NCBI GenBank assembly: GCA_903932685.1
Contig: CAIZGX010000005.1
Coordinates: forward strand, 1-37,159
DNA: 37,159 nucleotides
Source: an uncultured Bacteroidota bacterium
GTDB taxonomy: Bacteria; Bacteroidota; Bacteroidia; Flavobacteriales_D; Sanyastnellaceae
Reading direction: 5' to 3'
Shown here one piece after another: positions 7,313 to 23,919 of the stretch. The stretch's first letter is position 1, and the number at the start of each line of letters is the position of its first letter. The position numbers were made by a program, and so were the translations under genes. The notes under the pieces are model-generated. The model was not told where the DNA came from. It was given only the letters and a program-made list of their open reading frames with translations, and made no database searches.

Positions 7313-8899
7313 TTATGCATCTAATTCGCTGGTGAAGTGAAAACTTAACTCCGGATAGTTCTGCTTTTCCATGTCGAGCATAAACTGACTCGGTGCCAAG
7401 AAAACATCTCGATCTTCTTTGTCTTTCACAATGTTGTTTCCCTTAATACGCAAAAACTCAGCAAGCTTTGCAGGATCTGTTGTGGTTATCCAACAAGCCT
7501 TGTAGTATGACTTCGGTTCGAAAATACATTTCGCTCCGTATTCGTTTTCCAAACGGTATTTAATTACTTCAAATTGAAGTTCACCCACAGTTCCAACAAT
7601 CTTACGAGAACCTGGCTCTTGGAAGAATACCTGTGCAACACCTTCTTCCGTAAGCTGACGAATGCCTTTGTCCAATTGCTTCGTCTTCATTGGATCGCGA
7701 TTCACCAACTCCTTAAAGATCTCAGGCGAGAAGCTTGGAATACCCTTGAACATCATGTTCTCGCCTTCCGTAAGCGTATCGCCTATCTTGAAATTTCCAG
7801 TGTCATACAATCCTACAACATCACCTGGATAAGCTTCGTCAATGGTTGATTTCGCTTGAGCCATGAATGTAACCGGATTAGGGTATTTAAACTCTTTCGC
7901 TAAGCGAACATGCTTGTAGAATTTATTTCGCTCAAACTTTCCACTGCAAACGCGCAAGAAGGCTATGCGATCGCGGTGACGTGGATCTATGTTCGCGTGA
8001 ATCTTGAAAACGAATCCACTAAATTTTGTTTCGGTTGGATCTACTTCTCTTGTCTCTGTGTCGCGTGAACGAGGCGTTGGCGCAATCTCAATGAACTTCT
8101 CCAACAACTCACGCACACCAAAATTATTCATGGCTGAACCAAAAAACACAGGAGCCAATTTTCCTGCTTTGTAGGCTGCCACATCGAATGGATCGTATAC
8201 ATTGCTTATGAGTTCAACGTCTTGACGCAATTCATTGGCATATTGACCCGCTAATTCATCTAGAATCGGATCATTCAAATCTTCAATGTGAACGATGTTT
8301 TCTTCCACCTTCGTTTTGTTGGAAGCAAACAAATTAATGCTCTTGTCGTAAAGCTTATAAACGCCTTTGAAGCTGAATCCTTTTGAAATAGGCCAGGACA
8401 AAGGCTGAACTTTAATAGACAGCTTCGTCTCTAATTCATCCAGAATATCGAAACCGTCGCGTCCTTCCAAATCCATCTTGTTCACGAAAACTATCACTGG
8501 CGTGTCGCGCATGCGACAAACTTCCATCAATCGCTCTGTCTGTGTTTCTACGCCCTTCACACTATCAACAACCAAGATTACACTATCCACAGCTGTTAGT
8601 GTGCGGTACGTATCTTCTGCGAAATCTTTGTGACCGGGAGTATCGAGCAAATTAATCTGCTTGCCTTGGTATTCAAATACCATTACTGAGGTTGCCACAG
8701 AGATTCCTCTCTGTCTTTCAATTTCCATGAAATCGGAAGCGGCTGTCTTGGTAATCTTGTTACTCTTTACAGCACCTGCTGTTTGTATTGCACCTCCAAA
8801 AAGCAAGAGCTTTTCAGTTAATGTTGTTTTACCCGCATCGGGGTGAGAGATAATTGCAAACGTTCTTCTTCTTCCTATTTCTTCTTGCGCACTGGCCAT
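7313..8899 (-). CDS. prfC: Peptide chain release factor 3
   Basis: RF3 is a translational GTPase that recycles RF1 and RF2 from the ribosome after termination. The 528-residue length matches the family (E. coli 529). The G domain shows the P-loop 'SHPDAGKT' at 18-25, switch 'ERQRGISV' at 61-68, G3 'DTPGH' at 86-90 and G4 'NKMD' at 140-143. The effector-like G1 sequence and C-terminal 'GELQFEV' section distinguish it from EF-G and LepA. It is the last gene of the ctp - DUF1573 - prfC run, 12 bases after the DUF1573 gene, and ends in the bidirectional terminator. Confidence 0.97.
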
Positions 8900-8911: not shown

Positions 8912-9403
8912 TTATTTCGCAGCCGACGGTTCTACGTATGCTTTTATTTTAATGACAGTAGTTATTTCCGGTTCTGTATTCGCCGTAATGGTCACTGACT
9001 TCTCTTGATCTTTTTCTTTTTTGGTACTATCGAACTTCACATTAATTGCAGCCGATTGTCCGGGCTTAATGGCTTCTTTCGGCCACTCAGGAACGGTGCA
9101 TCCGCATGAACCTTTGCAATTTTCAATATACAAATCTTCTTCTCCGGTATTGGTAAATTCAAAATTAAACTCACGCTTCTCGCCTTCTTTCAACCGACCG
9201 AAATCGTGCACCATCTTTTTGAATTTCATTTTCGTCTTTGAACGTGCAATAGACTCTTCACCTGAACCTTTCTCAGGAGCTGCCTTTGGAAGAACCACAG
9301 GTGCCGGCTGACTTGGAATTACTTCTCCAGTGTTGGTTGAAGAAGTAGAACAACTTGCAAAAACAAGTATTGCACTTCCAAAAACAAGTACTAGCTTTTT
9401 CAT
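8912..9403 (-). CDS. DUF1573 lipoprotein
   Basis: Starting at the ATG at 9403 the product is 163 residues with a lipoprotein signal ('LVFASC', lipidated Cys about residue 17), a Ser/Thr/Pro/Lys linker, and a DUF1573 domain. That domain is an immunoglobulin-like fold recognised by 'HDFGRLKEGE', 'FTNTGEEDLYI', 'CGCTVPEWPK' and 'KPGQ...NVKFDST'. The family is common in Bacteroidota envelopes and its function is unknown. An upstream in-frame ATG at 9484 would add 27 residues before the signal peptide and overlap ctp by 77 bases, so it was rejected. The gene starts 4 bases after the ctp stop and is probably co-translated. Confidence 0.88.
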   Translation of the reverse strand: MKKLVLVFGSAILVFASCSTSSTNTGEVIPSQPAPVVLPKAAPEKGSGEESIARSKTKMKFKKMVHDFGRLKEGEKREFNFEFTNTGEEDLYIENCKGSCGCTVPEWPKEAIKPGQSAAINVKFDSTKKEKDQEKSVTITANTEPEITTVIKIKAYVEPSAAK

Positions 9404-9407
9404 TTTC

Positions 9408-11042
9408 TTATTTTTTCGATTTTGATTTACCCATTTTGTATTCATCGAATCCCAGTGGCATTTTCTCAAATTCACCATTGACAAGAATTTCCATTCCGCG
9501 TTTGAACGCTGGATTCAACTCATTGATAATTTCATAGAACGATTCGTTTTCATAAATTCCTCTTCCAACCAAAGCTTTCATTCTAACGAGAATCACTTGC
9601 TTTGAACGAGCGAATTCATCTTCATTGAATTTCACTTCCTTCTTTTCTGCAGCTTGAATAAACGCTTGTACTTCAGCTTCAGAAAACATGAATTGCGCAA
9701 TGAACTCTTTCGAGGTTGGATACTTCTTCTTCAACTCGTCGCGATGAGCATCTACGTATTCCATGGTCCAATCATTTGTAATTCCAACACGCAAAAGATT
9801 CGAAAAATATTTACTGTTCTCCGATGTGTCTAACGGAACAAAAATGTCAGGCATAATGCCCCCACCGCCGTATACCGTTCGCTTCGTCAAACGCGTTTCG
9901 TATTTATCTTTTTCAGAAAACTTAATGCTATCCGCATGGAAGAATTCACCGTTCTTCAATCGCTTCAAATAATCCATCTCGTAATCTTCCAATCCTTTCT
10001 CGTAAGGCTTTTGAATGCATCTTCCAGCCGGAGTATAATACTTCTGAACGGTTAAACGAACCATGGACCCGTCGGGCAATGGAATAGGTCGCTGCACCAA
10101 TCCTTTTCCGAACGATCTTCTTCCAACAATAACTCCGCGGTCCCAATCTTGAATTGCACCACTTACAATTTCACTTGCACTCGCCGATGACTCATCAATC
10201 AGCACGACCAATCTTCCCTCTTCAAACCTGCCTTTAACGCGAGGTTTTGCATTTGTTTTCTCTTCAGGAAACGTTCTTCCTTTCGTGAATACAATAAGTT
10301 TGTCTTTATCTAAAAATTCGTCGCACATATCAATAGCAGCGCTCAACATTCCACCACCGTTGTCTTGAAGATCTAGCACTAAATCGCGCATTCCCTTTTT
10401 CTTCAAATCGTCCAACGCCTTGTGTAATTCTTCGGTAGTTGTCTTCGCGAATCGAGACACTTTAATATACCCAATTCCTTCAGAGGCCATATATGCCGCG
10501 TCAATAGAATAGATTGGAATTTTATCTCGAATGATTTCATACGTCGCAACACCCGGAACTCCTTTTCTCAGAATACCCACCTTCACCTTTGTTCCTCGCG
10601 GACCACGAAGCTTCTTGAAAACATCGGTGTTCTTCATACCAACGCCCGCTACATTCACTCCATCAACCGTTACAATTTTATCACCTCCACGAATTCCTAA
10701 TTTCTCAGAAGGCCCTCCTTGAATAGGTTCCACCACCATAATAGTGTCATGAAGTATGTTGAATTGAACTCCAATTCCATCGAAACTTCCTTCCAACGGC
10801 TCATTCGCTTCTTGTACTTCTTCAGCGCTGATGTAGGTTGAATGAGGATCCAATTCTTCTAACAGAGAAATGATTGCTTTTTCTGTTAGTTCTTTCGAAT
10901 TTACCGAATCGACATACATATACTCAATGTAGTTCAACAACGATGCGAATTTGTCGGTTGTTGTTTTCGGATCTGGCTGTGCCCAAGCAGTGGCTGTAAT
11001 AAGCGATTGGACAGCTAAAAACAGGATAATTTTCTTTTTCAT
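9408..11042 (-). CDS. C-terminal processing protease (S41 family, CtpA-like)
   Basis: This 544-residue exported serine protease trims or degrades envelope proteins from their C termini. It has a signal peptide (about 1-22, 'TAWA-QP'), a PDZ domain at about 85-165 ('EPIQGGPSEKLGIRGGD'), and the S41 catalytic domain. The Ser-Lys dyad is visible as 'ESSASASEIVSGA' at about 284-296 and K313 in 'GRRSFGKGLVQ'. The start at 11042 was chosen over 11063 because 'MKKKIILF' opens a standard signal peptide and the earlier start would lie in the promoter region. A near-consensus promoter with an embedded perfect inverted repeat precedes it, and the DUF1573 and prfC genes follow closely. Confidence 0.93.
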   Translation of the reverse strand: MKKKIILFLAVQSLITATAWAQPDPKTTTDKFASLLNYIEYMYVDSVNSKELTEKAIISLLEELDPHSTYISAEEVQEANEPLEGSFDGIGVQFNILHDTIMVVEPIQGGPSEKLGIRGGDKIVTVDGVNVAGVGMKNTDVFKKLRGPRGTKVKVGILRKGVPGVATYEIIRDKIPIYSIDAAYMASEGIGYIKVSRFAKTTTEELHKALDDLKKKGMRDLVLDLQDNGGGMLSAAIDMCDEFLDKDKLIVFTKGRTFPEEKTNAKPRVKGRFEEGRLVVLIDESSASASEIVSGAIQDWDRGVIVGRRSFGKGLVQRPIPLPDGSMVRLTVQKYYTPAGRCIQKPYEKGLEDYEMDYLKRLKNGEFFHADSIKFSEKDKYETRLTKRTVYGGGGIMPDIFVPLDTSENSKYFSNLLRVGITNDWTMEYVDAHRDELKKKYPTSKEFIAQFMFSEAEVQAFIQAAEKKEVKFNEDEFARSKQVILVRMKALVGRGIYENESFYEIINELNPAFKRGMEILVNGEFEKMPLGFDEYKMGKSKSKK

Positions 11043-11052
11043 AAGTTCGGGA

Positions 11053-11082
11053 TAAAGGTACAACGCAGTTTCGTTGTACCAA
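11053..11082 (-). promoter_or_regulatory. Promoter of ctp operon
   Basis: Read on the minus strand, TTG (11082-11080) is followed by exactly 19 bases and TACCTTTA (11060-11053), which matches the Bacteroidota promoter TTG-N19-TAnnTTTG except in the last base. The predicted start is about 3-5 bases before the ATG at 11042. Confidence 0.6.
11057..11080. promoter_or_regulatory. Perfect 9-bp inverted repeat, candidate operator
   Basis: GGTACAACG (11057-11065) and CGTTGTACC (11072-11080) are exact reverse complements separated by 6 bases. The palindrome spans the whole spacer between the -33 and -7 elements of the ctp promoter, where a bound regulator would block or remodel the promoter. It is not followed by a T-run on either side, so a terminator is less likely. 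Confidence 0.55.
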
Positions 11083-11107
11083 TGTCCCTAACTAAAAAAC
11101 CGTACCA

Positions 11108-11560
11108 CTATTGCACGTCGAATTCCACAACCAACTCTTCGGCTGCATTTCCGCTTTCATCAACCGCCTGTAACTCCCAATGCCACACCCCATGAATGGT
11201 ATCAGGAACAACATAATACAAGGTCTTGGTCACGGTAGTGCCCGACAATGCAAGAATGCGCGTATCTACCCACAGCCCAACATTTGGAACAACCGCAGTT
11301 GTATCCACTTCACCATTGTGCCCGTGCCCATCTGCAGCATCGTGAATACTCGCCTTCATTTGACTTAAAGGATGACTATCGGTAATTGTAAAACGAATGG
11401 CCAAAGAATCCCCCGGTTGCACCAAGAAATCTAGCCCCATAACATCGTTCACAGAAACGGAACTGATTGCTGGCGGGGTTGTATCTTCTTGCTGACAGCT
11501 TTGAAGAATGAACGCTCCTCCGATTAACACAAGAAACGATTTAAGAATTTGTTTTTTCAT
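11108..11560 (-). CDS. DUF4625 lipoprotein
   Basis: This 150-residue product has a lipoprotein signal ending 'FILQSC' (Cys about 22) and a single beta-sandwich domain of the DUF4625 type: 'TPPAISSVSVND' start, 'VQPGDSLAIRFTITDSHPLSQMKASIHDAADGHGHNG' core, and 'WELQAVDESGNAAE' end. The loop 'DAADGHGHNGE' is His-rich and could bind metal. It lies 12 bases downstream of a TonB-dependent receptor gene on the same strand, a common setting for this family, so an accessory outer-membrane role in the same uptake process is inferred. Confidence 0.85.
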   Translation of the reverse strand: MKKQILKSFLVLIGGAFILQSCQQEDTTPPAISSVSVNDVMGLDFLVQPGDSLAIRFTITDSHPLSQMKASIHDAADGHGHNGEVDTTAVVPNVGLWVDTRILALSGTTVTKTLYYVVPDTIHGVWHWELQAVDESGNAAEELVVEFDVQ

Positions 11561-11572
11561 TTTGAGTTGATT

Positions 11573-13918
11573 TTAAAATTTAATTAATGTTTGAATAAAT
11601 ACATTTCGGCCCATTTCCGGAAGATTCAGTCTTCTGTAGTTACTCGTGTGATTGTAATAAAACGCATTGAAAAGATTGTTTACACCAAGGTTGCTTTCGA
11701 GTGTTATGCCACGCAACTTCCATTCAACTTTCAATCTGGAATCTAGCGTGTGATATCCAGGCGTTGTCTTCTCATTGCGGTCGACTCTGTTTTGCGCAGC
11801 AGCCCAATTGCCTTGCACTTCCAACTGAACATTCAACTTGTTTTTCAATTCGAATAATTTTTGTTGAAGCAATACACTCGATGAAATAGGTGGAGTAAAC
11901 GGAGAAGCTGTTCCCGATGAAAACAAATACGAAAACACCGACTGCGCGCTCCATTCTACCTTCGTTCGAGTATTCAATTGAAATTCACTTTTCATTTCAC
12001 CTCCAGAAAATAGTGCGCGGTCTTCCGCATAAACATAGACCTGCCCACCGTCTGACAATTCCGAAAAAACAGAAGAAGCCCGAAGGAAAATGTAGTTGGA
12101 AAAATAGTGCGCATATCCCGCCAACGACAATCGGAATTTTTCGGTTTGAAGTTCATACGCCGCATCGAAGAGATAACCCACTTCCGGATTCAGTTGCGCA
12201 TTGCCTTGCTCATGGCGGAAGGTACCGTGATGGACGCCGTTAATGAATAGTTCTGCAGCATTCGGCATACGCCATGCCCGCTGAAGACTGTACTTCAAAG
12301 ACTGCCCTTCGCGAATCGCAACGGCTTCTCCAATTTCGAACAACCATCCTGCAAAATTTCGAGAGTTCTCACTCGCACGGACGTAATAAGATCCAATGCT
12401 ATCAGCCGATGCATAAATTGGAGAACGGAAAGATTCATTGCGCATACTCCCCTGCTCCACTCGCATTCCTAAGGTTCGGAAGGTTTCTTTTTTTCTATGT
12501 TGAAGGGGAACGTTCTGTTGCACGTAAACCGCGTTCTGAGCTCCAGAATAGTTCGGCAACAAGAAATCATATCCGCCACGCGTATGCTGAAGCAATTCCG
12601 AAAATAATCCAACCAACGTCTTTGTTCCTTCCTTCGAAGTCATGCGCAAAAACGAATTGATTTGCGCTGAACGCAAACGCAAATCGTGCGCAACGTTGTA
12701 ATTCGGCAACGGCTGAAAGCCCTCTCTTCGCGGAAGAATAAACTCTTGTCTTCTGTTTTCCTGAACCCCTGCATTCGTTTCGAACCATCCCCATTTTGTG
12801 TTCGAAGAAAAATGCATCGCCGATTTAAAATGTCGGAGCGATACATTTGGAAATCCAACATTCCTAGAATCGCCATCGCTCTGAACACTGCCAACAGTGG
12901 GCACTCCGATCGCACCCACGAACATGCCCGCGTTCTGCGTGTACAAACTTTGCGACAACTGAATTTTCCCTTTGGGAAATAATCTTCCAACAACAAATTG
13001 CTCGTGCACATCTTTTCCAGCTGTATTCTGTAAAGCACCTTCGGCAAGCGGATAAATTCTTCTCAAATAAGTGAACGAATCGGCCGGCAATTGCATGTCG
13101 CCGTAATTCATTAACGTACTTCGAAGCTTCACGTAATTCTTATTTTTTCGAATTGAAATTTGAGCGGAATTACCAATGGTGTTGTTGTTCGATTGGAAGA
13201 TGGAACCCACGTTCCCATGAACACCTTCTTTCGGCACTTCGGGTAAGCGAATGGAAAGCACTCCGCCTATTGCGTCTGATCCATACATGACATTCCCCGC
13301 ACCTTTCCGCCATTCAATGTTCTCAATTTGAAAGGGGTCAATCTCTAGCCCGTGATCACTTCCCCACTGCTGCGCCTCATGCTTCATTCCTAAATCTTGA
13401 ATGAAGCAGCGTGAACCTGAATACGCCCGAATCTGCGGCTTGCTCATTCCTGCTCCGGTTGAAATGGAAGAAATACCTGGCTGAGATTTCAGCTTGTCTG
13501 AAAGCGTTAGTCCATTGGCCAACGTAAGTTCTGCTGCTGAAAGCGAAACCATGGCTTGTGAAGATCTTCGAACTTCTACTTTAGAAGTGCCGTCTTCAAT
13601 GACAATTTCATTCAATTGAAAATTTGAAGGAAGCAATTCAATGCGCAAGGTTGTTATGGAATCTCGCTCCACCCTGAAATCGAAAAGCTTCGCTGCGTAA
13701 TTGTCCTTCAACACATGTAAATGATATTTTCCTACTGGAATTTCTTCCACAATAAAATACCCCTTACCGTCGGTAATAACGTCGGTATTGAGTTCATGCA
13801 CTTCTACATGAACATGCGAAAGGGGTAATTGCGTGGAAGCATCAACTACAATTCCGTGCAGTTGCGCCTGTGCAAAATATCCCATTCCCAAAAAGAGAAC
13901 AAGAAAAAATAAACGCAT
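11573..13918 (-). CDS. TonB-dependent outer-membrane receptor, probable metal (zinc/copper) uptake
   Basis: The 781-residue product has a signal peptide (1-18, 'AQA-QL'), a carboxypeptidase-regulatory-like domain (about 20-110), a plug domain (about 120-225, with 'GAGNVMYGSDAIGGVLSI') and a 22-strand-type beta barrel ending 'NVFIQTLIKF' with a terminal phenylalanine. The segment 'NAAELFINGVHHGTFRHEQGNAQLNPE' region near 560-585 resembles the ZnuD-type receptors ('ELYA.G.H.AT..FE.GN..L'), and the plug contains 'QWGSDHGLEID'. The N-terminal domain has the His-rich strand 'SHVHVEVHEL'. With its two His-rich neighbours this suggests zinc or copper as substrate; the receptor class is sure, the substrate is an inference. 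Confidence 0.93.
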   Translation of the reverse strand: MRLFFLVLFLGMGYFAQAQLHGIVVDASTQLPLSHVHVEVHELNTDVITDGKGYFIVEEIPVGKYHLHVLKDNYAAKLFDFRVERDSITTLRIELLPSNFQLNEIVIEDGTSKVEVRRSSQAMVSLSAAELTLANGLTLSDKLKSQPGISSISTGAGMSKPQIRAYSGSRCFIQDLGMKHEAQQWGSDHGLEIDPFQIENIEWRKGAGNVMYGSDAIGGVLSIRLPEVPKEGVHGNVGSIFQSNNNTIGNSAQISIRKNKNYVKLRSTLMNYGDMQLPADSFTYLRRIYPLAEGALQNTAGKDVHEQFVVGRLFPKGKIQLSQSLYTQNAGMFVGAIGVPTVGSVQSDGDSRNVGFPNVSLRHFKSAMHFSSNTKWGWFETNAGVQENRRQEFILPRREGFQPLPNYNVAHDLRLRSAQINSFLRMTSKEGTKTLVGLFSELLQHTRGGYDFLLPNYSGAQNAVYVQQNVPLQHRKKETFRTLGMRVEQGSMRNESFRSPIYASADSIGSYYVRASENSRNFAGWLFEIGEAVAIREGQSLKYSLQRAWRMPNAAELFINGVHHGTFRHEQGNAQLNPEVGYLFDAAYELQTEKFRLSLAGYAHYFSNYIFLRASSVFSELSDGGQVYVYAEDRALFSGGEMKSEFQLNTRTKVEWSAQSVFSYLFSSGTASPFTPPISSSVLLQQKLFELKNKLNVQLEVQGNWAAAQNRVDRNEKTTPGYHTLDSRLKVEWKLRGITLESNLGVNNLFNAFYYNHTSNYRRLNLPEMGRNVFIQTLIKF

Positions 13919-13956
13919 TGAAAAAGATTAAGAATGAATCGGAAAAGAATTAACGA

Positions 13957-14259
13957 TTATCCTTGGGGAGGTCCTCTGCCCGATTGTTCTACAAAAAATG
14001 AATCTGAAAATGGCGAAACATAAACCGACGTTGTTGCAGGCAGTTCAACATTGCAATGAAAAGCAATGTCTAAAATTTCTACAGGTAAATAAGGAAGGGC
14101 TTTGATTGCACAATACTGGCATTGCTCGTCTTCATGCTCATGAGAAGTTTCTGAATCATGACTGTGCGCCGTGAGTTGATGAAAGGTTTGAAAAGAAAGC
14201 ACACCCACAAAAAGCACGAAAAGTGCTCTAGCTAATGATGTTCTTATTTTCAAATTCAT
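13957..14259 (-). CDS. Small His/Cys-rich membrane-anchored protein (DUF2946-like), putative metal binding
   Basis: From the ATG at 14259 the product is 100 residues: one hydrophobic helix (about 9-26), then 'HSHDSETSHEHEDEQCQYC' at 32-50 with four histidines and a CxxC pair, and a C-terminus 'SGRGPPQG'. The HxH/CxxC core and the RGPP ending recall DUF2946 proteins found beside metal-related receptors. The longer reading frame back to 14388 would run into the Gly-rich tail of the TPM gene in another frame and is Ala/Glu-biased, so it was rejected. A TATCTTCG element 4 bases upstream of this ATG also supports the start. It precedes the receptor gene by 38 bases and likely shares its transcript. 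Confidence 0.75.
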   Translation of the reverse strand: MNLKIRTSLARALFVLFVGVLSFQTFHQLTAHSHDSETSHEHEDEQCQYCAIKALPYLPVEILDIAFHCNVELPATTSVYVSPFSDSFFVEQSGRGPPQG

Positions 14260-14263
14260 GTCG

Positions 14264-14271
14264 CGAAGATA
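14264..14271 (-). promoter_or_regulatory. Possible -7 promoter element for the metal-uptake locus
   Basis: On the minus strand TATCTTCG lies 4 bases before the ATG at 14259, a common Flavobacteriales variant of TAnnTTTG. No good -33 TTG is present at 19-20 bases, so the call is weak. If real, the message would be leaderless or nearly so and the receptor locus could be expressed separately from the TPM genes. Confidence 0.35.
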
Positions 14272-14284
14272 GGTCATTTCAACA

Positions 14285-15115
14285 TTACCACGACCCACCT
14301 GCTCCGCCGCCGCCAAAGCTTCCACCTCCAAAACCGCCGAAGCCTCCTCCACCGCCTGATCCTCCGCCGAAGCCGCCGCTTCCTCCACGAAATGAATTGT
14401 AATAGCCCGAGTGACGCGTGTTCATAGATGCGAGTAAGGCCCATGCAGCCCAAAAGCCTAAGTTGTTTGTGCGTGCATATTGACGTGTGCTCTTCACTTT
14501 AAATAAAAAGAAAACGCTGGCAATTACGATGAAGAAAACCAGTGCACCAAGTATACCGCCTTTGTTCTTTTTCTTTTCAGGAGCATATTCACTTGCTGGA
14601 TATTTTCCGCGAGATAAATCAGAAAGTATTTGAACACTTTTGGCAATGCCTTCAAAATATTTTTTCTGTTTCGCTAATGGAATAAATTCATTTTCAACAA
14701 TGGTGTAAGAGATTGCATCTGGAATGGTTCCGTGAAGTCCTCTTCCAACTGCAATAAAAGCTTCTCCTTTGGAAGACGCTTGCTTCGGTTTAATGAGGAA
14801 TACGATTCCGTTGTCTTGCTTGGCTTGTCCCACTCCCCATTGCTCTCCAAGTTTTGTTGCGAAAGCGTACGGTTCAAATCCGCATAGGTCCTCCACAATC
14901 ACAACCACGATTTGCGTACCTGTTGTGCGAGCCAAATTTTGCAAGCTGTCTTCCAACAATTGGATTTCATTGGCTGCAAGCATTCCTGCTCCGTCATAAA
15001 CCAAACGTCGATCATCTTTCGCTGGGAAACAATCTTGAGCCTTTGCCTGTGCGCCAAAGACGAACAAAGCAGCAACGAATAATACTTTAACGGCTGACTT
15101 TATTGCTAATCTCAT
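14285..15115 (-). CDS. TPM-domain exported protein with Gly-rich tail (YgcG-like)
   Basis: The 276-residue product has a signal peptide (about 1-26), a TPM domain (about 38-170: 'VYDGAGMLAANEIQLLEDSLQ', 'GTQIVVVIVEDLCGFEPYAFATKLGEQWGVGQAKQDNG'-type core), one or two transmembrane segments (about 186-205 and 218-232), and a C-terminal run of Gly/Ser/Phe repeats. In this family the domain faces the periplasm; TPM proteins have been linked to photosystem II repair in plants and acid phosphatase activity in vitro, but their bacterial role is unclear. The gene overlaps the preceding TPM gene by 29 bases and belongs to the lemA operon. Confidence 0.9.
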   Translation of the reverse strand: MRLAIKSAVKVLFVAALFVFGAQAKAQDCFPAKDDRRLVYDGAGMLAANEIQLLEDSLQNLARTTGTQIVVVIVEDLCGFEPYAFATKLGEQWGVGQAKQDNGIVFLIKPKQASSKGEAFIAVGRGLHGTIPDAISYTIVENEFIPLAKQKKYFEGIAKSVQILSDLSRGKYPASEYAPEKKKNKGGILGALVFFIVIASVFFLFKVKSTRQYARTNNLGFWAAWALLASMNTRHSGYYNSFRGGSGGFGGGSGGGGGFGGFGGGSFGGGGAGGSW

Positions 15116-22202: not shown

Positions 22203-23015
22203 ATGGGAAAAATAATAACCGTTGCAAATCAGAAAGGCGGCGTTGGAAAAACAACCACTGCCATTAATCTTGCTGCTGCATTGGGCGTCTTGGAATTCAA
22301 AACACTTTTGGTAGATGCCGACCCTCAGGCCAATGCGACCAGCGGTGTAGGTGTTGATCCGAATACCGTTAAGACCAGCATCTATGAGTGCTTAATTAAC
22401 GATGTTGACCCACGTGATATTATTATAAAGACAGAAAGTCCGAATCTCGATCTTCTTCCTTCGCACATCGATTTGGTTGGAGCCGAAATTGAGTTGATTA
22501 ATATGCCCAGCCGCGAGTATATGCTTCGGGGTACATTGAATAAGATAAAAGACGATTACGATTTTATTATTATCGACTGCTCTCCTTCTTTGGGATTGGT
22601 AACTGTAAATGCATTGTCAGCTTCAGCCAGTGTCATTGTTCCGGTTCAATGTGAATATTTCGCTTTGGAGGGACTTGGGAAATTATTGAACACGATAAAA
22701 ATTGTTCAACAAAAATTAAATACAGAATTAACCATTGAAGGCATTCTGTTAACGATGTACGATACCCGTCTTCGCTTGAGCAATCAAGTGGTTGAAGAAG
22801 TGCGCATGCATTTTCAAGAGATGGTTTTCGACACTTTAATTCACCGCAACACTACATTGGGAGAAGCGCCTAGCTTTGGTCAAACGGTGATTATGCATGA
22901 CGCCTCGTGTAAGGGAGCGGTGAACTATTTGAATATGGCGCGTGAGCTTCTTCAAAAAAACAATTTGACGAAGATGGGTAGCGACGAAAAATACATTCCT
23001 TTAGATCATGAGTAA
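22203..23015 (+). CDS. parA: Chromosome partitioning ATPase ParA/Soj
   Basis: This 270-residue ATPase binds DNA nonspecifically as a dimer and, with ParB, moves replicated origins apart. It has the deviant Walker A motif KGGVGKTT at 11-18, Walker A' 'DADPQANAT', and Walker B '[14 protein letters not shown]' near 120-133. The '[13 protein letters not shown]' segment is typical of chromosomal Soj proteins, not of plasmid ParA with N-terminal HTH. Its last 8 bases overlap parB, so they are translationally coupled. The upstream 180 bases carry inverted repeats and parS-like half sites. Confidence 0.97.
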
Positions 23016-23919
23016 GAAACAAGCCTTAGGAAGAGGATTAAGCGCTCTGTTGGAGCATTCTCCGGTATCAAGTAAAAGTGAACTCGTTTCACAAGCTGCG
23101 CCAATTTCTGGAGAGAATGAAGTTGGACATGTCGCAGGTCCGATAACCTTGTTAAACATTTCGCAAATTGAAGCGAATCCTTACCAACCACGTAAGGACT
23201 TCAACAACGACGCATTAATTGAACTTGCCACAAGTATAGGTGAGCTCGGATTGATTCAACCGATAACGGTTCGAAAGGTTTCTTCTCAGAAATATCAAAT
23301 CATTTCGGGGGAACGTCGCTTCCGCGCGAGCCAAATGGCTAACCTTACAGAAGTGCCTGTATACTTGCGTGAAGCAGATGACCAAGGCATGTTGGAAATG
23401 GCATTGGTAGAGAACATTCAACGTGAAAACCTGAATGCACTCGAGATTGCCATTAGCTACAAGCGCTTGATGGAAGAGTGCAGTCTAACCACCGACAAGC
23501 TTGCAGACCGTGTAGGTAAAGACAGAACAACCGTTACAAACTACGTTCGCTTGCTTCGCCTTCCGCCTGAAATTCAATTTGGAATTATTGAAAAACGCAT
23601 TAGCATGGGCCATGCGCGAGCTTTAATTAACGCTGAACCAGAAAGCAAACAGATTAAAATTTTCAAGTTAATTCTTGAGAAAGACTTAAGCGTTCGCAAG
23701 GTGGAAGAGTTGGTGAAGGAAAACGACGCTCCGAAGTTGTTCGCATCGAAAGCGAATTTCATGCCGCTTGAAATTCAGAAAATGCAGGCAGACTTAAAAT
23801 TACGATACGGAAAGAAAGCCAAGGTTACTCGCAATGAAGGTGGCGTTGGAAAAGTTGAAATTCCGTTTACGACTGACGACGATTTAGAGCGCATAATTTC
23901 TATGCTCGGACTTAATTAA
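23008..23919 (+). CDS. parB: Chromosome partitioning protein ParB/Spo0J
   Basis: ParB binds parS sites, spreads as a CTP-dependent sliding clamp, and stimulates the ParA ATPase. The 303-residue product shows a basic N-terminal ParA-contact tail ('[13 protein letters not shown]'), the ParB/CTPase domain with 'NPYQPRKDF', 'GLIQPITVR', 'SGERRFRAS' and 'ENIQRENLN' (about 55-150), and an HTH region '[25 protein letters not shown]' in two halves near 165-190, followed by '[10 protein letters not shown]'. The C-terminal part is a dimerisation helix. It overlaps parA by 8 bases and is followed after 5 bases by the DUF5683 gene. Confidence 0.97.

Follow-up and report, generated by a model that had tools for sequence, protein, structure and literature searches.

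The inverted repeat directly upstream of ctp is tentatively interpreted as a gene-boundary hairpin, i.e. a weak terminator-like insulator, that is nested in the ctp promoter; judged from sequence, this is the reading that we favour, although we place it slightly short of an even chance. The repeat lies in a window of 37,159 nucleotides (the whole stretch of DNA that was analysed) from the genome designated G000, one of the nine congener genomes compared (G000–G008). The symmetric elements and the genes around them are as follows.

11057..11080, strand not assigned: perfect inverted repeat GGTACAACG-CAGTTT-CGTTGTACC (9-6-9), from the sequence, with arms invariant in six congeners
11044..11093, strand not assigned: extended imperfect dyad of 50 bp with symmetric 1-nt and 5-nt interruptions and outer arms AGTT and GGG, from fold and sequence
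11043..11108, minus strand: near-invariant 66-nt block upstream of ctp, from alignment, with 6 of 66 columns varying in six genomes; includes a T6 tract (minus strand, 11099-11094)
11108..11560, minus strand: DUF4625 protein, the co-directional upstream neighbour of ctp here (Pfam PF15418; closely similar upstream sequence in G006)
9408..11042, minus strand: ctp, S41 C-terminal processing protease with PDZ domain (Pfam PF03572, PF17820)
8912..9403, minus strand: DUF1573 protein, start picked by eye (Pfam PF07610)
7313..8899, minus strand: prfC, peptide chain release factor 3 (Pfam PF16658, PF00009)

Sequence, symmetry and fold of the element

The sequence GGTACAACGCAGTTTCGTTGTACC is present exactly, and only once within the window, at 11057-11080, which confirms the perfect 9-bp inverted repeat that an earlier note on this DNA had placed in the ctp promoter spacer; a match with up to three mismatches appeared in 0 of 100 shuffles. 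That description captured the 9-6-9 core, but the symmetry is larger and extends over 50 bp (11044-11093) in the layout AGTT.GGG.....GGTACAACG-N6-CGTTGTACC.....CCC.AACT. The 50-bp dyad stops 2 nt short of the ctp ATG, and the inner hairpin stops 14 nt short of it. For the dyad region, the RNA of the minus strand has a folding energy of -23.5 kcal/mol (z -3.5) and that of the plus strand one of -25.6 kcal/mol (z -7.6); because both strands fold, folding is uninformative on direction. The inner hairpin by itself gives -13.7 kcal/mol and has 5 of 9 GC pairs in its stem.

Exact 9-bp arms with loops of 3-12 were counted 14 times in the real window versus a mean of 2.25 (sd 1.95, maximum 9) in 60 dinucleotide shuffles, nested registers being scored separately in both. 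The claim that exact 9-bp arms are unlikely by chance therefore fails for arm length alone, given the shuffle mean, but holds for position and conservation; it is these that make the palindrome non-random, and it is not a chance feature.

Conservation among congeners and in the family

The palindrome is exact in six of the nine congener genomes (G000, G001, G002, G004, G006, and G008) and always lies just before ctp, locus L001 being left out of this comparison as a duplicate of L004. In the assemblies of two of the other three, G003 and G005, no ctp orthologue was seen; in G003 a contig end cuts prfC, and an assembly gap is likely behind the missing ctp. The third, G007, whose Ctp is 73-74% identical, lacks the palindrome and any comparable hairpin at ctp, having upstream of it a long weak hairpin (z -1.8 from -55 to +12, and -2.9 in a wider stretch). 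The ctp start is thus contained in seven assemblies, and the 66-nt block is nearly invariant in six of these. At fourfold sites of ctp, the same six genomes differ by 29-51%, and this near-invariance is therefore not due to chance.

The block stays with ctp although the upstream neighbour differs among congeners: the gene 5' of ctp encodes the DUF4625 protein in G000, with a closely similar sequence in G006, and a protein with a glycine-rich TPM-type C terminus (by eye) in G001, G002, G004, and G008. With or without DUF4625, the upstream gene is co-directional with ctp. In the window, three genes (DUF2946-like, TonB-dependent receptor, and DUF4625; 11108-14298) reside between the TPM-domain gene and ctp, the DUF2946-like match being under the Pfam cut-off, and this set is a cassette gained or lost at the TPM/ctp junction.

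The variable columns in the six genomes fall in the loop (3/6) and the rest of the block (3/42), and none is in the arms (0/18); the arms are thus better conserved than the loop (p 0.01) but hold no such advantage over the other 42 columns (p 0.55). Between G000 and G004, identity over the 75 nt preceding ctp is 0.973, which shares ranks three to five among 29 regions. Upstream regions are generally well kept in the genus: in the G000-G004 comparison (29 of 72 orthologue pairs, with spacers of at least 60 nt in both genomes; a few of the best kept may be coding), the median identity over 75 nt is 0.893. Such values, together with an arm conservation that does not exceed that of the remaining block and with about two 9-bp repeats per shuffled window, would suit an incidental symmetry in a strongly conserved promoter, with the left arm as a by-product. 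We regard this as very improbable in view of the outer arms, which prolong the symmetry, and of the 18 of 18 fixed arm positions set against change at three of six loop positions.

Among 105 other genomes of the family, no exact palindrome was found, and the four nearest matches had two mismatches each. Folding of 30 ctp loci, taken from 60 genomes with a ctp match (-55 to +12, hand-picked starts), revealed no consistent hairpin outside the clade, and the idea that other genera keep the fold at ctp but not its sequence was rejected on this basis; in two loci, L027 and L028 (z -3.5 and -2.5), a hairpin is located farther upstream of ctp.

Hairpins at gene boundaries in the genus

The hairpin survey took in 411,838 bases from G000 and 1,064,760 from G004 and used simple ATG-ORF calls of at least 80 aa and spacers of 30-300 nt; hairpins with arms of at least 8, at least four GC, and a loop of 3-10 were regarded as GC-containing. 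Such hairpins were found in 41 of the 300 co-directional spacers and in 32 of the 74 convergent ones, as against 1 of 153 divergent spacers (co-directional vs divergent, Fisher p 4.6e-7). They are gene-end elements in the two sampled genomes, mostly T-tailed, and with one occurrence in 153 divergent spacers, such palindromes are not typical promoter operators here. When all hairpins with arms of at least 8 that end within 40 nt before a start were counted, co-directional and divergent starts had 5/78 and 0/94 in G000 and 15/222 and 8/236 in G004, respectively; restriction to arms with at least four GC (hand count) left 18/300 and 1/330. Within 120 nt of a start and with no GC filter, the counts were 37/300 for co-directional and 17/330 for divergent starts.

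Several of these hairpins are wedged against the next start codon, some with a -7-like TTTG at the foot. Three start-abutting examples (C12:51034, C1:32021, and C1:78457) were aligned across the genus, with the G002 row left out of two of the three alignments, its match lacking the N terminus. By eye, the arms are mostly fixed, the loops vary in two of the three, and the tails are T-rich; G007 carries a different hairpin at the same places (also by eye), and in G000 two of the three have the -7-like TTTG at the foot. Boundary hairpins in this genus thus keep their arms fixed and leave the loop free.

The tail after the ctp hairpin is TTTATCCCG in three species, with 4 T of 9, and TTTAACCCG in another three, with 3 T of 9; both fall below the T tail of at least 5 of 9 that is present in 36 of the 41 co-directional hairpins. 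Two of the five poorest-tailed hairpins are the ctp hairpin itself in two genomes. By base rate, therefore, it belongs with the gene-boundary hairpins, and by its tail it is a poor terminator. The earlier note had named, as an alternative, a terminator of the DUF4625 transcript; the confinement of GC-containing hairpins to gene ends in the sampled genomes favours this proposal, and the poor T tail weakens it. A terminator scan did not report the ctp hairpin in its output but reported a weaker T6-tailed stem at 11117-11101. This T6 tract with a CGTGC/GTACG stem was rejected as the real upstream terminator, the stem being predicted in G000, G006, G004, and G001 but in neither G008 nor G002.

Of the five poorest tails, two more belong to hairpins in short co-directional spacers that are likewise kept among congeners. 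One (ACCGAATGAAT/ATTCATTCGGT; L124:13370-13391, G004 C1:173370-173391) has no T tail, lies between rsmH-like and short ftsL-like genes (names by eye), and is present in 8 of 8 matched genomes of the nine congeners, with U-A in one and U-G in seven; it is a candidate intercistronic RNA element. The other, a palindrome GGTGCACGAATTT-loop-AATTCGTGCACC (L126 ~7590-7621, G004 C1:207590-207621), abuts the ATG of a histidine kinase gene (name by eye) and was found in 5 of 5 matched genomes of the nine, in one of them less perfect.

Promoter-like stretch before ctp

Two putative promoter boxes flank or overlap the palindrome.

11080..11082, minus strand: candidate -33 TTG, 19 bp from the -7 box, from the sequence; N19 is narrowly the commonest TTG spacing
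11053..11060, minus strand: candidate -7 box TACCTTTA, which overlaps the hairpin at its 3' foot, from the sequence, the excerpted consensus of PMC6847099, and genus counts

On the minus strand, TTG (11082-11080), N19, and TACCTTTA (11060-11053) are followed by the ctp ATG (11042-11040). The description 'near-consensus' in the earlier note was right as to TTG-N19-TACCTTTA and its place but generous as to the box, which agrees with TAHHTTTG at five of six fixed letters and lacks the G at -5 that is nearly invariant in the Flavobacterium johnsoniae consensus (PMC6847099, in excerpt). In the sampled G000 and G004 stretches, 119 instances of TAHHTTTG lie within 30 nt of a start, versus 27 of TAHHTTTA. 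Among the TTG spacings tested in the same genomes, N19 ranks top, narrowly, with 10 of 143, and N23 has 9. According to excerpts of the respective reports, transcription in F. johnsoniae starts 4-5 nt past the -7 box, with a mean 5' leader of 33 (PMC6847099), and 5' UTRs in F. psychrophilum have a median of 24 bp, with 5.5% leaderless mRNAs (PMC9723704). A ctp start site at 11047/11048 would give a leader of 5-6 nt, which is possible, if untypical.

Operator and RNA-element readings

In the operator reading, the duplex palindrome, with its centre in the -33/-7 spacer, would be bound by a dimeric regulator that represses ctp or activates it in MerR style. The 9-6-9 symmetry placed in the N19 spacer, the invariant arms and free loop in six genomes, and a T tail poor for a terminator all accord with this, as do the strong palindromes in 19-20 bp spacers described for MerR-family signals in the excerpted text of PMC1526738. 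Pfam MerR_1 matches two genes in eight of the nine congener genomes and one in the ninth; the two of the present genome are on contigs C64 and C71. Against these points, G007 has two MerR_1 genes yet no palindrome, 19 is the usual TTG spacing here rather than an abnormal one, and GC-containing palindromes are nearly absent from divergent spacers.

In addition, searches for further sites returned background. The only full palindrome match in the genome's own assembly is the ctp site; with up to three mismatches, the 22-mer matched nine places versus 15 for a reversed-pattern control, the next two best (C12:36850 with one mismatch and C64:4632 with two) being within open reading frames; a regulon was rejected on these grounds. 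In the sampled upstream regions (172 of G000 and 458 of G004), the second-best arm match had 13 of 18 letters, equal to that of permuted arms, and no regulator gene turned up when nine neighbours, prfC through LemA, were scanned with Pfam. The dedicated regulator of ctp - DUF1573 - prfC suggested earlier is thus not supported: there is no second site, in the genome or, beyond the four two-mismatch matches, in the other family genomes searched; no neighbour among those scanned is a regulator; and the arms are no better kept than the block. A dedicated operator is not favoured, and we rate the operator reading as rather unlikely.

Alternatively, the element may be an intercistronic RNA hairpin, neither terminator nor operator: ctp would mostly be co-transcribed with its upstream gene, and the stem before the ATG would tune translation or processing. 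The extended stem reaches to within 2 nt of the ATG, the fold is stable in six species (MFE from -21.2 to -24.4 kcal/mol, with z from -4.4 to -6.0), and the two other T-poor hairpins right before start codons (rsmH-like/ftsL-like and histidine kinase) offer parallels. In a wider stretch, z is -2.6 to -5.9, and 23 of 153 background starts are also below -3. We consider this reading unlikely, as pairing from -12 to +6 is near the median of 153 co-directional starts, the invariant arms show no compensatory change in the inner stem, no Rfam match overlaps the element, and a plausible promoter lies inside it. The Rfam covariance models gave two sub-threshold matches in 10700-11400 at E <= 5, neither of them overlapping. 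Start-codon occlusion as the main effect was rejected because start-region pairing in the read-through RNA is ordinary by comparison with the 153 co-directional starts.

XerCD dif sites have an 11-6-11 architecture. A dif site at ctp was rejected, the cumulative GC skew in G004 contig C1 climbing through ctp (569 kb) with no switch. Elsewhere in the window (22203-23919), ParA-like and ParB-like genes were recognized by eye, and parA is preceded by GTGAAACACGCGTGAAACA, which is reminiscent of a parS site; the ctp palindrome is unlike parS. Searches of a set of PMC papers brought up none recognized as dealing with a palindrome in the ctp promoter of a flavobacterium.

A proposed boundary hairpin within the ctp promoter

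In the favoured reading, the boundary hairpin would close the transcript of the upstream co-directional gene and be packed against ctp so tightly that its 3' foot (..GTACC-TTTA) doubles as the ctp -7 promoter box. Incoming transcripts, from the TPM-domain gene in four congeners and from DUF4625 here, would fold into the hairpin and pause or partly terminate at TTTAT/TTTAA, and read-through RNA would carry the ctp start behind a long stem. RNA polymerase at the promoter of ctp itself would start ~4-5 nt after the -7 box, yielding a leader of ~5-6 nt that excludes the left arm, and the transcript from this promoter would therefore be free of the hairpin. We infer promoter use, termination, and insulation at the ctp hairpin from sequence features.

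The main counter-evidence is the T-poor tail, TTTAT/TTTAA. In addition, the outer dyad arms run past the tail, which is odd for a terminator; the conserved block extends far beyond the hairpin on its upstream side, more than a terminator requires; a comparable hairpin is missing at ctp in G007; and hairpins counted with no GC filter also occur near divergent starts (17/330).

An extended version would assign three jobs to the one 50-bp dyad: ending the upstream transcript, hiding the ctp start in read-through RNA, and supplying the ctp -33/-7 promoter. The same letters would then give opposite outcomes for polymerase that comes in from upstream and for polymerase that initiates at ctp. This version seems improbable to us; if true, it would provide a small model for a terminator and a promoter packed into ~60 nt in small-genome Bacteroidota. 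For compact genomes in general, the case warns against taking every perfect, conserved palindrome in a promoter spacer for an operator, since fixed arms and free loops are also the pattern of boundary hairpins.

Comparison with known systems

The ctp element resembles MerR-family (COG0789) operator/promoters in that a promoter spacer of 19 bp holds a strong palindrome. It differs in its 9-6-9 arms of GGTACAACG, whereas MerR half-sites have the 7-4-7 TCCGTAC or a 9-4-9 form (PMC1526738, in excerpt, with other MerR-family consensuses partly compared), and also in being one site with no regulator among nine neighbours, ordinary 19-bp spacing, and Bacteroidetes -33/-7 boxes.

With flavobacterial sigma-A promoters (TTG / TAnnTTTG), ctp shares the spacing and the TAnnTTT core, and -7 boxes near the ATG are common in the genus. 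The ctp box, however, ends in A rather than G, and the predicted leader of 5-6 nt compares with the excerpted values of 24 (median, F. psychrophilum) and 33 (mean, F. johnsoniae).

Like the intrinsic (Rho-independent) terminators of the genus, the ctp element has a GC-containing stem of at least 8 bp located 3' of a co-directional gene, its inner hairpin forming a stable stem-loop after DUF4625 in the gene's own direction and after the TPM-type gene in four congeners; in both, the arms are mostly kept, the loops drift, and the next start codon is often hard by. The differences are a stem with 5 of 9 GC, a dyad that passes the tail, and, in place of a U-rich tract right after the stem, a tail of 3-4 T of 9, because of which the element is called terminator-like and is not classed as an intrinsic terminator.
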